Made by a program: the position numbers and the translations under genes. Below, piece after piece: positions 52,603 to 57,991 of a stretch of 64,000 bases of DNA. This DNA is from Vulcanimicrobiota bacterium (GTDB taxonomy: Bacteria > Vulcanimicrobiota > Vulcanimicrobiia > Vulcanimicrobiales > Vulcanimicrobiaceae). Position 1 is the first letter of the stretch. Every line of letters begins with the position of its first letter. The notes under the pieces were generated by a model that saw only the letters and a list, made by a program, of their open reading frames with translations, ran no database searches and was not told the origin of the DNA. The stretch spans positions 41,904-105,903 of the forward strand of contig JASHOG010000018.1 in assembly GCA_030041225.1 (NCBI GenBank), in the 5' to 3' direction.

Positions 52603-52876
52603 CATTTTGGTGGTGCGGAGAACGCAAATCTATCTCGATGAGGAGCAGAAACGAAGGCTGAGAAGCCTTGCGGCGCACCTCGATTCCAACGTCTCCGACC
52701 TGATCCGCAGGGCTGTCGATCGCCTCCTAAGCGAGGAGTGGAGACCGGATGCCTGGGAAGCAAGGTTTGATGCGTGGCAACAAAAGGCGCGCAAGCGCCT
52801 GGGTAACATCAGCATAGAAGACTTCGATCGCGCTCATCGTTCGGCAACAAAACGCGGAGCGAAGAAGGCCCGATGA
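52595..52876 (+). CDS. Ribbon-helix-helix (CopG-like) antitoxin
   Basis: RRTQIYLDEEQKRRLRSLAAHLDSNVSDLIRRAVDRLL; 4-nt overlap with PIN gene. Confidence 0.85.
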   Translation: MVYILVVRRTQIYLDEEQKRRLRSLAAHLDSNVSDLIRRAVDRLLSEEWRPDAWEARFDAWQQKARKRLGNISIEDFDRAHRSATKRGAKKAR

Positions 52877-53493
52877 GCAGACTTGTCGTCGTCCTCGACG
52901 CAAACGTGCTAGGCCCCGGACTCGTCGGCGCCGGTACGTCGTCTGCGGAGATCGTGCGGTTATGGCGGGGCGGCATCTTCGACATCTTGGTCGCAGGTAA
53001 GCTTCTGGAGGAGATCGCCGAAACGTTAAGGGCGCTCGGTCTCGACGACGAAGCGACCATGGAGCTTGTGCCTGTCCTTACGCGGGATCCCTCTACGGTT
53101 GTTGCCATCAAGCATCAGCGCATGGGCTGCTCGGATCCGGATGACGATTACTTATTCGAGCTTGCGATCTCCGGCAACGCGGCGTTCATCGTAACGCGAG
53201 ACAAGGGGCTCTTTTGCTTGCCCTCGTCACTGGACCTCACGCTCAAAACACTCGGCATCCTCGTGATCAACGACGTAGACTTCCTCGAGTATGTGCGTGG
53301 GCATCTGTTCTCACCGCTGGTGTACGAAGCCTCGACGCTCTGCGTCGGGGACGTTCAGGGACCTCTGGATGTGCCGTGCCTCGTATGCGGCCACGGTTTT
53401 CATTGGGACGTCGAGTGCGGAGCCATCCTTGAGTGCGAGGGGGCCCCGTGCCAGCGTACCTGCCCGGTATCCCTCGAGCCACAAGCTCTGTAG
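52873..53493 (+). CDS. PIN-domain toxin with C-terminal Cys-rich extension
   Basis: [44 protein letters not shown]; tail [29 protein letters not shown]. Confidence 0.85.
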
Positions 53494-54989: not shown

Positions 54990-54998
54990 CCGCTGAAA

Positions 54999-55961
54999 TT
55001 AACGGAAGAGAGGCAAGTCCTTCGCCAACTCGTTGACAGGCTTGAGCTCGTCTCGCTCCCGCGCTATAAATGCAACGCCATTGCCTTGAAGAATTTCTGA
55101 TATCCATGCCACATCGCTGCTTGGTTCGTTGCCGAAGGCGAGGACGGGGCTAGCGCGGCCGATGTCGGCACGATACCTTACGGAGTAGTCGAAGAGCTGG
55201 CCCATACCGTAGCGCATCCGGTCCACGGCCGCTGTTTGGCGCGTTAGGCTCTTGACCTCGACGAGGAGTTTCCGGCTGCCGAGTTGAGCGAGAAGATCGA
55301 GGTTGTTGTTGAAGAGGCATGAGCCTCCGCGGTACTCGACGCGCTCCTTGAGTAAGCGCAACGTGTCCTGATGATCGCGCCGCGCTCGTTCCTGCAGTGC
55401 TGCTGCCTCGTAGACGTCGGGCCCGGTACCGGTAGGTCGATAGCCAGTGCCTTCCGGGACGGCGACGAGCGGGCGTAACGCATCGCGCGGTGGCGCGAGG
55501 AGGGGCGACACGCGCCCGGCAAGGGCGTCCGATACTGTTGGCGCGTCTGCAAACACGGCGCCGGTCACTCCCGCTGCTTCAAGGATGCGGTGGAAGTCGA
55601 GGTCATCGATGTAGCGTACCGACTGTCCCTGAAACGCGTTACGGTCGTTAAAGCGGGACTCGTACATGCGGCCGACCGGGTCGAGGTATGGCACGGGGCG
55701 AGCGAAGCGTATTCCCTTTTCGATACTCACAAAGCGGTGGCCAGGGTTATTCGCGTCGTCCCAAACGTCACCAAGCGCGCCGCAGCCGAAGTATGTACTC
55801 GCTTCGCCTGCGGTCGCACCGCGCGAAGGGCGGTAGTATACGAACCTTTCGCCGCCGCCGATACGGTCGAAGTACTGCTCCGGATAGTGGTAAACGACGA
55901 ACTCAGTGTCGAGGTACTTTGGATCATCGCGCCATGCGCGCTGCATCAGCACGAGAGGCAT
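54999..55961 (-). CDS. Putative restriction-endonuclease-like protein (PD-(D/E)XK-type C-terminal domain)
   Basis: NNNLDLLAQLGSRKLLVEVKSLTRQ...RMRYGMGQLFDYSVRYRADIG reads as D-x(n)-ExK plus helix Q; N-terminal domain unassigned. Confidence 0.5.
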   Translation of the reverse strand: MPLVLMQRAWRDDPKYLDTEFVVYHYPEQYFDRIGGGERFVYYRPSRGATAGEASTYFGCGALGDVWDDANNPGHRFVSIEKGIRFARPVPYLDPVGRMYESRFNDRNAFQGQSVRYIDDLDFHRILEAAGVTGAVFADAPTVSDALAGRVSPLLAPPRDALRPLVAVPEGTGYRPTGTGPDVYEAAALQERARRDHQDTLRLLKERVEYRGGSCLFNNNLDLLAQLGSRKLLVEVKSLTRQTAAVDRMRYGMGQLFDYSVRYRADIGRASPVLAFGNEPSSDVAWISEILQGNGVAFIARERDELKPVNELAKDLPLFR

Positions 55962-56007
55962 CTGACGCTTGCGTTTTTCGCGTAAGGACTATCTTCCTGT
56001 GCGAAGA

Positions 56008-56278
56008 GAGCGGATGACGGCCCATTTTGGTAATCGGCGTGAAACGGTACAGCAACACCGCGGCAATAACCCACTGCGATAATCGTTTGCGGGAAGGGGA
56101 CCGTAGCGTAACTGGCTAGCGCGCCGTACCACCGATTCGGAGGTGCGGAGGCGCCTCGCGTGCTAAGATTGCCGCGGTGGTACGGTAACTTACGCTACGC
56201 GAGGAGCCGCTTGAACAAGGCGGCTCTTCGCTTTTATGGGCTTCGCGGTTATCTATTAGGCGAGCGGATGACGGCCCA
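56008..56278. repeat. 237-bp segment bounded by 17-bp perfect direct repeats GAGCGGATGACGGCCCA
   Basis: Copies at 56008-56024 and 56262-56278; second copy is the 3' end of the downstream-listed membrane protein CDS. Confidence 0.75.
56204..56236 (+). terminator. Probable Rho-independent terminator inside the 237-bp element
   Basis: GAGCCGC-TTGAACAAG-GCGGCTC followed by TTCGCTTTT. Confidence 0.6.
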
Positions 56279-56752
56279 CACCGTGATATCCCACGCGTTG
56301 TGTATGCAGACCAGCAAAAGCGCCATCAAGGCCGCGACGAGCGTCCATGCTCCGGCCGGAAGTCGGAACAGCAAAAGAACCGCTGCGATGACGATGGCAA
56401 ACTGAGAGAGCACCGGCGCAAAACCATAGAACGTGCGATCCTCTCGGTCGATCCCCATCTCCGGGTCGTGGTAGAAGCGCTCGACCCCGAGGAGCACACG
56501 CAATGCGAAAGCAAAGCCGAGAACGCCCGCAGCGAGCACGAGCGCGCTCGCTGTTGCCGGATTCGCGGGCAGCAGCACCATCAAGCAGATAACGAGGATC
56601 GCCGCGAGATGGAAGATCGTCGGCGAGAGAAAGACCGAAAGCCCGGGGCGAAGCTCCTCGGTCATGTAGCTCGCCGTAATCGAGACGGCGACGAACATCA
56701 GGCCGACGAGGGTCGCCGACGCGGTGCCGATGAGCATGAAGAAGTCGCGCAT
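56249..56752 (-). CDS. Hypothetical multi-pass membrane protein
   Basis: Multiple TM helices (LIGTASATLVGLMFVAVSI, FHLAAILVICLMVLLPA, ALVLAAGVLGFAFALRVLLG). Confidence 0.7.
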   Translation of the reverse strand: MRDFFMLIGTASATLVGLMFVAVSITASYMTEELRPGLSVFLSPTIFHLAAILVICLMVLLPANPATASALVLAAGVLGFAFALRVLLGVERFYHDPEMGIDREDRTFYGFAPVLSQFAIVIAAVLLLFRLPAGAWTLVAALMALLLVCIHNAWDITVWAVIRSPNR

Positions 56753-56761
56753 CTGAGATCC

Positions 56762-57991
56762 TTACCGGGTTTCGTTACGGACCGCGGGCGTGCATGCAGC
56801 GACGCCCGCGAGCGCGATGTAGCCGATCGCCGTAATCGTCATCGCGAGATGTGCGCTCCGATGATCGGCGATCCAGCCGAAGAGGAGCACGCCCGGTAGC
56901 AACCCACCGAGCACGACCAGGCGAACCGCGCCCATAACGCGCCCGACGAGCTCCTCAGGTGCGACGCGGAGGCGAAATCCGATGATTTGGGCGACTTCGA
57001 AGCTGCCGGCTGCGCCCGCGGCGGCCCACGCACACGCCGCGACCCAGAGATTGTGCGTTATCACGACGGGCAAGAAGGTCAGGGCGTCAATGGCATATGC
57101 GATGATGAGTGCGCGCCCAAAGGGCCAACGCCTCGCATTGAGCGTCGCGAAGACCGTGCCTAGCAGCGCACCGACGGCTGCGATGCCCAAGAAGAAGCCG
57201 ATGTCGCGGTCGGATGCGCTGAAGACGCGCTTGAGGAACGGAATCAAAATCGCAAACGCGCCGAAAGCGAAGAAGTTGAAGAAGAAAGCGAGGCTCGCCT
57301 GGGCGCGCATGCCGCTGTCGCCAAGGAGCGTCCTAAATCCGAGCACGATGTCGTTGCGAACCTGACGTACTGACGGGAGGCCGTGAACGGCTTCGGGACC
57401 GAGGCTAGGGATGCGCATCAGCGAAAGCTGCGACGCGAGGTACGTCGCGGCGTTGAAGATGAGTGCCGGAAAGGGGCCGAAGAAGGCGAAAAGCGCGCCG
57501 CCGAGCGTCGGCATCACGAGGTTCGAGAAGTTCTCGGCGCCGATCAGCACCGCAACCGCCTCCGTCGTACGCTCCTTTCCGACGAGGTAAGGAATGGACG
57601 ATGATTGCGCGCTCAGAAACGCCGCGGCGCTGATCGAAATGATGATCAAGCCGGCGTAGATCATGGGCATCGTCAAAATGTGGAGTGCATACGCGATCGC
57701 AAAGGCCGTCATGACAGCGCAGCGTACGGCGTCACAGGAGATCATGAGCCGTTTGCGGTCGAGCCGGTCGGCGAGTGACCCCCCGACGAGGCCGAAGAGA
57801 GAGAATGGGCCGATCTCGCAAATGAGCGATGCGCCCGTCGAAAGCGCCGAGTGCGTCAAGTGGTAGGCGAAGAGCGGAATCGCGAGCGTGCGCAAGCCGT
57901 CGCCGAGCAGGCTCAGCGATTGACCGAGGAAATACTGGCGAAAGCCTCGCGACGAAAAGACGCTCGGCACGAGCCCTGCGACGGCGGCCAT
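56762..57991 (-). CDS. MFS transporter
   Basis: FGLVGGSLADRLDRKRLMISCDAVRC motif A plus ~12 TM helices. Confidence 0.9.
   Translation of the reverse strand: MAAVAGLVPSVFSSRGFRQYFLGQSLSLLGDGLRTLAIPLFAYHLTHSALSTGASLICEIGPFSLFGLVGGSLADRLDRKRLMISCDAVRCAVMTAFAIAYALHILTMPMIYAGLIIISISAAAFLSAQSSSIPYLVGKERTTEAVAVLIGAENFSNLVMPTLGGALFAFFGPFPALIFNAATYLASQLSLMRIPSLGPEAVHGLPSVRQVRNDIVLGFRTLLGDSGMRAQASLAFFFNFFAFGAFAILIPFLKRVFSASDRDIGFFLGIAAVGALLGTVFATLNARRWPFGRALIIAYAIDALTFLPVVITHNLWVAACAWAAAGAAGSFEVAQIIGFRLRVAPEELVGRVMGAVRLVVLGGLLPGVLLFGWIADHRSAHLAMTITAIGYIALAGVAACTPAVRNETR

Follow-up and report, generated by a model that had tools for sequence, protein, structure and literature searches.

A small dispersed non-coding element of Candidatus Eremiobacterota has, with a probability of roughly 0.6, left a degenerate copy in the 237 bp between two 17-bp direct repeats in the window, by which we mean the whole 64,000-nucleotide stretch of DNA analysed. 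That the element itself is real, dispersed and non-coding we regard as very probable. The copy in the window is about 200 bp long (56036-56236, plus strand) while a complete element measures about 260 bp, and six copies were found at three genomic places in 5 of 117 Eremiobacterota genomes. The window belongs to a 2.38-Mb draft genome, whose relatives of the same family are deposited as Candidatus Eremiobacterota. The features of the site are as follows, in window coordinates:

54999-55961, minus strand: gene of a 320-aa protein, family unknown, on the far side of the element
56008-56024, plus strand: left 17-mer, separated from the element by about 11 bp
56036-56096, plus strand: 5' leader, with weak similarity to what precedes the tRNA-like gene in genus g33
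56097-56148, plus strand: B, truncated tRNA-like part (5' acceptor strand, D arm, anticodon arm)
56102-56111, plus strand: lower complementary segment of B, CGTAGCGTAA, predicted to pair with 56190-56199
56124-56134, plus strand: anticodon-arm segment of B, CCGTACCACCG, predicted to pair with 56175-56185
56151-56236, plus strand: C, conserved module with extended -10-like box, dyad, B-complementary stretch and terminator
56155-56161, plus strand: left arm of the dyad, CTCGCGT
56161-56169, plus strand: extended -10-like box, TGCTAAGAT (TGCTARRAT in 6/6 copies)
56175-56185, plus strand: complement in C of the B anticodon-arm segment, CGGTGGTACGG
56190-56199, plus strand: complement in C of the lower B segment, TTACGCTACG
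56197-56203, plus strand: right arm of the dyad, ACGCGAG
56199-56235, plus strand: intrinsic terminator (14-bp stem, 5-nt loop, TTTT tail)
56249-56752, minus strand: gene of a 167-aa membrane protein, 68% identical in G083 and with the same PNR* end there
56262-56278, plus strand: right copy of the 17-mer, part of the membrane gene's own coding sequence (WAVIRS)

Copies of the element and their genomic places

Covariance models of C were run over 99 genomes of the family and 117 genomes of the class, and the module in the window scored 90.1 and 91.5 bits with the two models (R1 and R2). A BLAST search for further copies in the genome had been proposed in the first-pass annotation; by BLASTN the 237 bp are single-copy in their own genome, but the covariance model finds a diverged second copy of the right part. 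This copy (G000:C114, hereafter C114) lies between an xseB-like gene and tlyA, with only a tRNA 3' tail (CCGTCGGCTCCAGGCCC) upstream of C. The other four copies share one locus in genomes of another genus, g33, where DNA matches of 77-85% to 56097-56148 and 56149-56229 were found. Three of these genomes (G070, G071 and G074) carry a complete tRNA-Gly(GCC)-like gene, then a spacer hairpin and then the conserved block C, and in G072 the tRNA-like gene is missing with block C intact. C is hence retained where B is truncated (window), reduced to its tail (C114) or gone (G072).

At all three loci the element stands between two co-directional genes and is antisense to both. Tight junctions free of the element were seen in relatives for two of the three loci: the xseB stop adjoins the tlyA start in G080 and G071, and in G069 and G073 a gap of 2 bp separates a small DUF gene from the PaaA-like gene. 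At the window site the relative G083 has neither the element nor the 320-aa gene. In the tree of the PaaA-like protein from g33, G073 groups with G069, both without the element, and in the TlyA tree G068, where the element is absent and the leader kept, falls among the carriers. The g33 trees suggest a gain of the element and later losses, most of the inner branches being weak.

A stringent pattern search of genome contigs returned only two deposited g33 genomes, Candidatus Eremiobacterota bin6A and bin6B. No match was detected in viral contigs by two pattern scans or in plasmids, and phages gave generic tRNA similarity only. Weak model matches in G005 and G088 (27-30 bits) were not accepted as copies. 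A 26-nt match in G028 falls inside a transporter reading frame and was ascribed to chance, the match in G051 is likewise inside a transporter gene, and other matches of 14-20 bp in the window's own genome contain no tRNA and were also taken as chance. An in-frame TGA flagged in the g33 tlyA matches is the gene's own stop. The tlyA start beside the C114 copy (ATGGCGACACGGCTTG, L121 345-370) includes GGCGACACGG, which in g33 is the core of C that is complementary to B; this may be chance.

The conserved module C

The intrinsic terminator is present in 6/6 copies, and the dyad CTCGCGT/ACGCGAG is common to all six, with one arm base differing in G070 and one in C114. No sigma-70 site of two hexamers was found around the extended -10-like box, which has no -35 box. 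The fold of the plus strand is more stable than expected (z = -4.7), and this strand also holds the T tract and has the stronger fold of the two; in the window 13 bp separate the end of the T tract from the membrane-gene stop codon. We consider an RNA ending at the terminator probable.

Two readings of the dyad are compatible with the alignment. It may be an RNA hairpin, for which 94% of the cells pair, with covariation not above that of shuffles. It may also be promoter or operator DNA, in which case the RNA would start just downstream and consist of an unstructured antisense stretch and the terminator. Among the Rfam small RNAs (6S, T-box, Y RNA and others) none reached its gathering score in the window; only weak chance matches occurred, and C has no match in Rfam.

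The tRNA-like part B and the leader

B in the window has ACC at the anticodon position and lacks the T arm and the 3' acceptor strand, which rules it out as a tRNA; no tRNA was called in the window. A complete cloverleaf is found in three g33 copies. There B has the Gly anticodon GCC together with G3-U70 and A73 in the acceptor and C instead of U at position 33, and in G070 and G071 the stems contain mismatches. With this combination the g33 B does not pass for a tRNA of regular identity and decoding. The G3-U70 pair is the main determinant of alanyl-tRNA synthetases (PMC6451123). The housekeeping tRNA-Gly(GCC) is a separate gene elsewhere, 98-99% identical between the genera, and B is distinct from it. 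Pseudo-tRNAs with roles outside translation are known (PMC3399842), and the tRNA-like part in g33 may be one of them. A permuted tmRNA (RF04321) was rejected, as the match reached 20.3 bits against a gathering score of 47 and ran through the T arm and acceptor only.

The alignment of the leader to g33 was reached by 0/500 shuffles for G070 and 1/500 for G074, and by 32/500 for G071, where it is not clearly better than the shuffles.

Complementarity between B and C

C is complementary to the D arm and the anticodon arm of B over 10 and 11-12 bp (21-22 bp together), with a predicted energy of -34 to -37 kcal/mol. In the window, G074, G071 and G070, 94.3% of the cells in these helices are paired, compared to 20-45% when the partner is slid. 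Between the window and g33 there are three double compensatory changes (G-C to A-U twice, U-A to C-G once). The B-C covariation was reached by 20 of 500 shuffles. With four sequences informing the pairing, the compensatory changes are suggestive and not proof, and one template-switch event could mimic them. No special pairing was detected between C and the 33 housekeeping tRNAs of the genome, and a housekeeping tRNA as target of C was dismissed since it did not rise above the shuffled control. A second complementarity, 20 nt at 85% between the leader (56048-56067) and C (56168-56187), occurs in the window copy only and competes with the B-C pairing in the predicted fold.

Proposed working of the element

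In g33 a complete copy combines B, the tRNA-like gene, with a hairpin spacer and module C. C is most likely transcribed as a terminator-ended RNA pairing with the D arm and anticodon arm of B. If B and C are on one transcript, a rod-like fold would keep B from folding as a tRNA; alternatively C would pair with B in trans, as an antisense RNA. In the window B is truncated and fused to C, with the B-C pairing kept. We put forward the action of C on B tentatively, and transcription and the mode of movement are likewise inferred from sequence. The element probably lies antisense within its host operons because its terminator would cut an operon if it ran in the sense direction. The persistence of C without an intact B fits a role of its own for C, or C being the part not to lose first.

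Further, we speculate that the element might be a selfish toxin-antitoxin module made of RNA only, a long shot in our judgement. Here the chimeric B, with an Ala-type acceptor and a Gly anticodon, would put alanine at glycine codons or disturb glycine decoding, and C would be the neutralising antisense RNA. By the same remote analogy, copies without B would keep C as antitoxins outlive toxins. The rarity of the element (5/117 genomes), and the damage to B or its loss in several copies, would be compatible with decay as well.

If real, this is an undescribed dispersed RNA element in a little-studied phylum, in which a tRNA-like gene is accompanied on its own strand by a complementary segment ending in a terminator. 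Whether a tRNA-like gene and its antisense regulator can travel together could then be tested concretely and at little cost.

Comparison with known systems

CopA and RNAI are antisense small RNAs with an intrinsic terminator. Like these, the element carries a short complement of a structured RNA target with a terminator behind it, so that complementarity to a definite target and a terminator are both found. In contrast to CopA and RNAI, the complement is an inverted copy situated downstream of the target on the same strand, and not on the strand opposite it. It seems to work most like an antisense-RNA/target pair, and as judged here it is outside every family tested.

The tRNA-Other of Bacillus cereus (PMC3399842) resembles the element in being a tRNA-like gene beside transferred DNA which is unlikely to serve in ordinary translation and is maintained in some lineages. 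The element differs in that a complementary, terminator-ended module follows on the same strand, and in that half of the tRNA is gone from the window copy. CreTA consists of an RNA toxin and an RNA-guided antitoxin; its toxin CreT uses a mini-ORF to sequester rare tRNAs, and CRISPR-Cas mediates its repression (PMC8501985). CreTA is likewise a small RNA module that involves tRNA and has no conventional toxin protein (PMC8501985), whereas the present element pairs a tRNA-like gene with an antisense stretch, and no link to Cas was seen. With MITEs and dispersed intergenic repeats the element shares small size, lack of coding capacity, intergenic position, richness in dyads and occurrence at several loci. 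Unlike MITEs it has no terminal inverted repeats, shows no target duplication at 2/3 loci, is present in only two copies in the genome, and carries a tRNA-like gene and a terminator.

Two further candidates were set aside: a type I toxin-antitoxin system, as no credible small hydrophobic toxin ORF was found, and a site-specific integrative element, as there is no integrase or recombinase in the element or the tested neighbours and the geometry is wrong. For a Y RNA-like (YrlA) identity there was no match in Rfam.

Decay and cis-regulation as alternatives

The element could be a functionless relic, a tRNA-like gene with its terminator that was carried along as passenger DNA and is now decaying, the inverted complementarity stemming from an old inverted duplication and the compensatory-looking changes from one template switch (quasi-palindrome correction). 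We hold this to be unlikely, at perhaps one chance in four. The truncation of B in the window, its reduction to a tail in C114, its absence in G072, the stem mismatches in G070 and G071 and the loss of the whole element in G068 all agree with decay, and the three double changes are close together. However, box, dyad and terminator are kept in six copies of C at three loci in two genera, and the conservation of C is above neutral intergenic expectation between genera whose TlyA proteins are 64-69% identical.

We find it considerably harder to believe that the element is cis-regulatory DNA or a leader RNA acting on the downstream minus-strand gene (320-aa, PaaA-like or tlyA). It does precede such a gene at 3/3 loci, and the dyad is its best-conserved part, but the genes downstream are unrelated from locus to locus, two of the loci are free of the element in relatives, and the T tract and the stronger fold point to the plus strand.

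The 17-bp direct repeats

The exact 17-mer GAGCGGATGACGGCCCA occurs at both positions reported earlier, the two copies being 237 bp apart. Such a pair is unlikely to arise by chance: exact direct repeats of at least 17 bases within 300 bp numbered one in the window and zero in Markov simulations of it (60 of order 2 and 60 of order 5). Shorter repeats are in mild excess, with four 14-mer repeats in the real sequence compared to about 0.5 in the simulated ones.

The first-pass annotation took the right copy for the native 3' end of the membrane-protein gene and the pair for the footprint of a transposition or a site-specific integration. The right copy is indeed native, comprising the WAVIRS codons, but it lies 13 nt before the gene end, which reads on as SPNR*. 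The membrane protein of G083, from the same genus, ends in WAVIRAPNR*, where that of the window ends in WAVIRSPNR*, and 3 nt separate the fumC stop codon from that of the membrane gene in G083. As the PNR* end is shared, the stretch between the right 17-mer and the element is the native gene end, and with the native end inside the right copy neither a target-site duplication nor an attL/attR geometry fits. As to the suggested check for an empty site in relatives, G083 is without the element, and its gene end contradicts the insertion reading.

On the minus strand the left copy reads WAVIRS and then LRTGR*, ending upstream of the 320-aa gene, whereas a target duplication or a Campbell-type integration would have the native PNR* end beside it. 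The ancestral flank is thus not outside each repeat copy, and the distal copy does not continue as an att site should. The left copy also lies outside the stretch homologous across genera, which starts near 56036 in 2/3 alignments; the third (G074) extends weakly further left. The g33 and C114 loci were without any flanking duplication, and the sizeable inverted repeats are all internal to the 237 bp, so that terminal inverted repeats are lacking.

Insertion of a 237-bp element with duplication of a 17-bp target, or its integration at an att site of 17 bp, is consequently very improbable, even though exact repeats rarer than chance surround a non-coding element; the native end inside the right copy instead of beside the left one, the left copy outside the conserved element, other loci free of flanking repeats and the missing integrase all speak against it. 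We reject the target-duplication and att footprints on the geometry in G083 and the repeat-free other loci. The repeats are best read as a locus-specific short duplication of the membrane-gene end, separate from the element, which arose while the variable fumC-MFS site was reshuffled. The earlier idea of a tiny non-autonomous element or sRNA cassette survives in altered form, as a dispersed, terminator-bearing non-coding element at three unrelated loci, but the repeats are not its footprint. The reanalysis removes a misleading example of a 17-bp target duplication.

Neighbourhood of the window site

As stated in the earlier annotation, the 237 bp encode no protein (we found no convincing ORF between the 17-mers), and its report of no TIR or integrase nearby was confirmed: the inverted repeats are internal, and neither integrase nor transposase was detected among the PIN-domain protein, fumC, the 320-aa protein, MFS, TauE, EF-P, PlsY and Der. 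The 320-aa protein has no Pfam, NCBIfam or PADLOC family. It contains a VEVKS stretch reminiscent of PD-(D/E)xK nucleases, and it gave a weak PDB match to an XisH-type protein (E 0.84).

A homologue of the 320-aa protein (41%) occupies the same site in G081, and other genes are found there in G080 and G084. The gene content of the fumC-MFS interval (window 54990-56762) varies among the genomes of genus g1 with its neighbours conserved, and the interval is possibly a small hot spot. Adjoining fumC is a gene for a PIN-domain protein (52873-53493, plus strand; PIN_3, E 1.1e-14), which is a possible toxin of a toxin-antitoxin pair.
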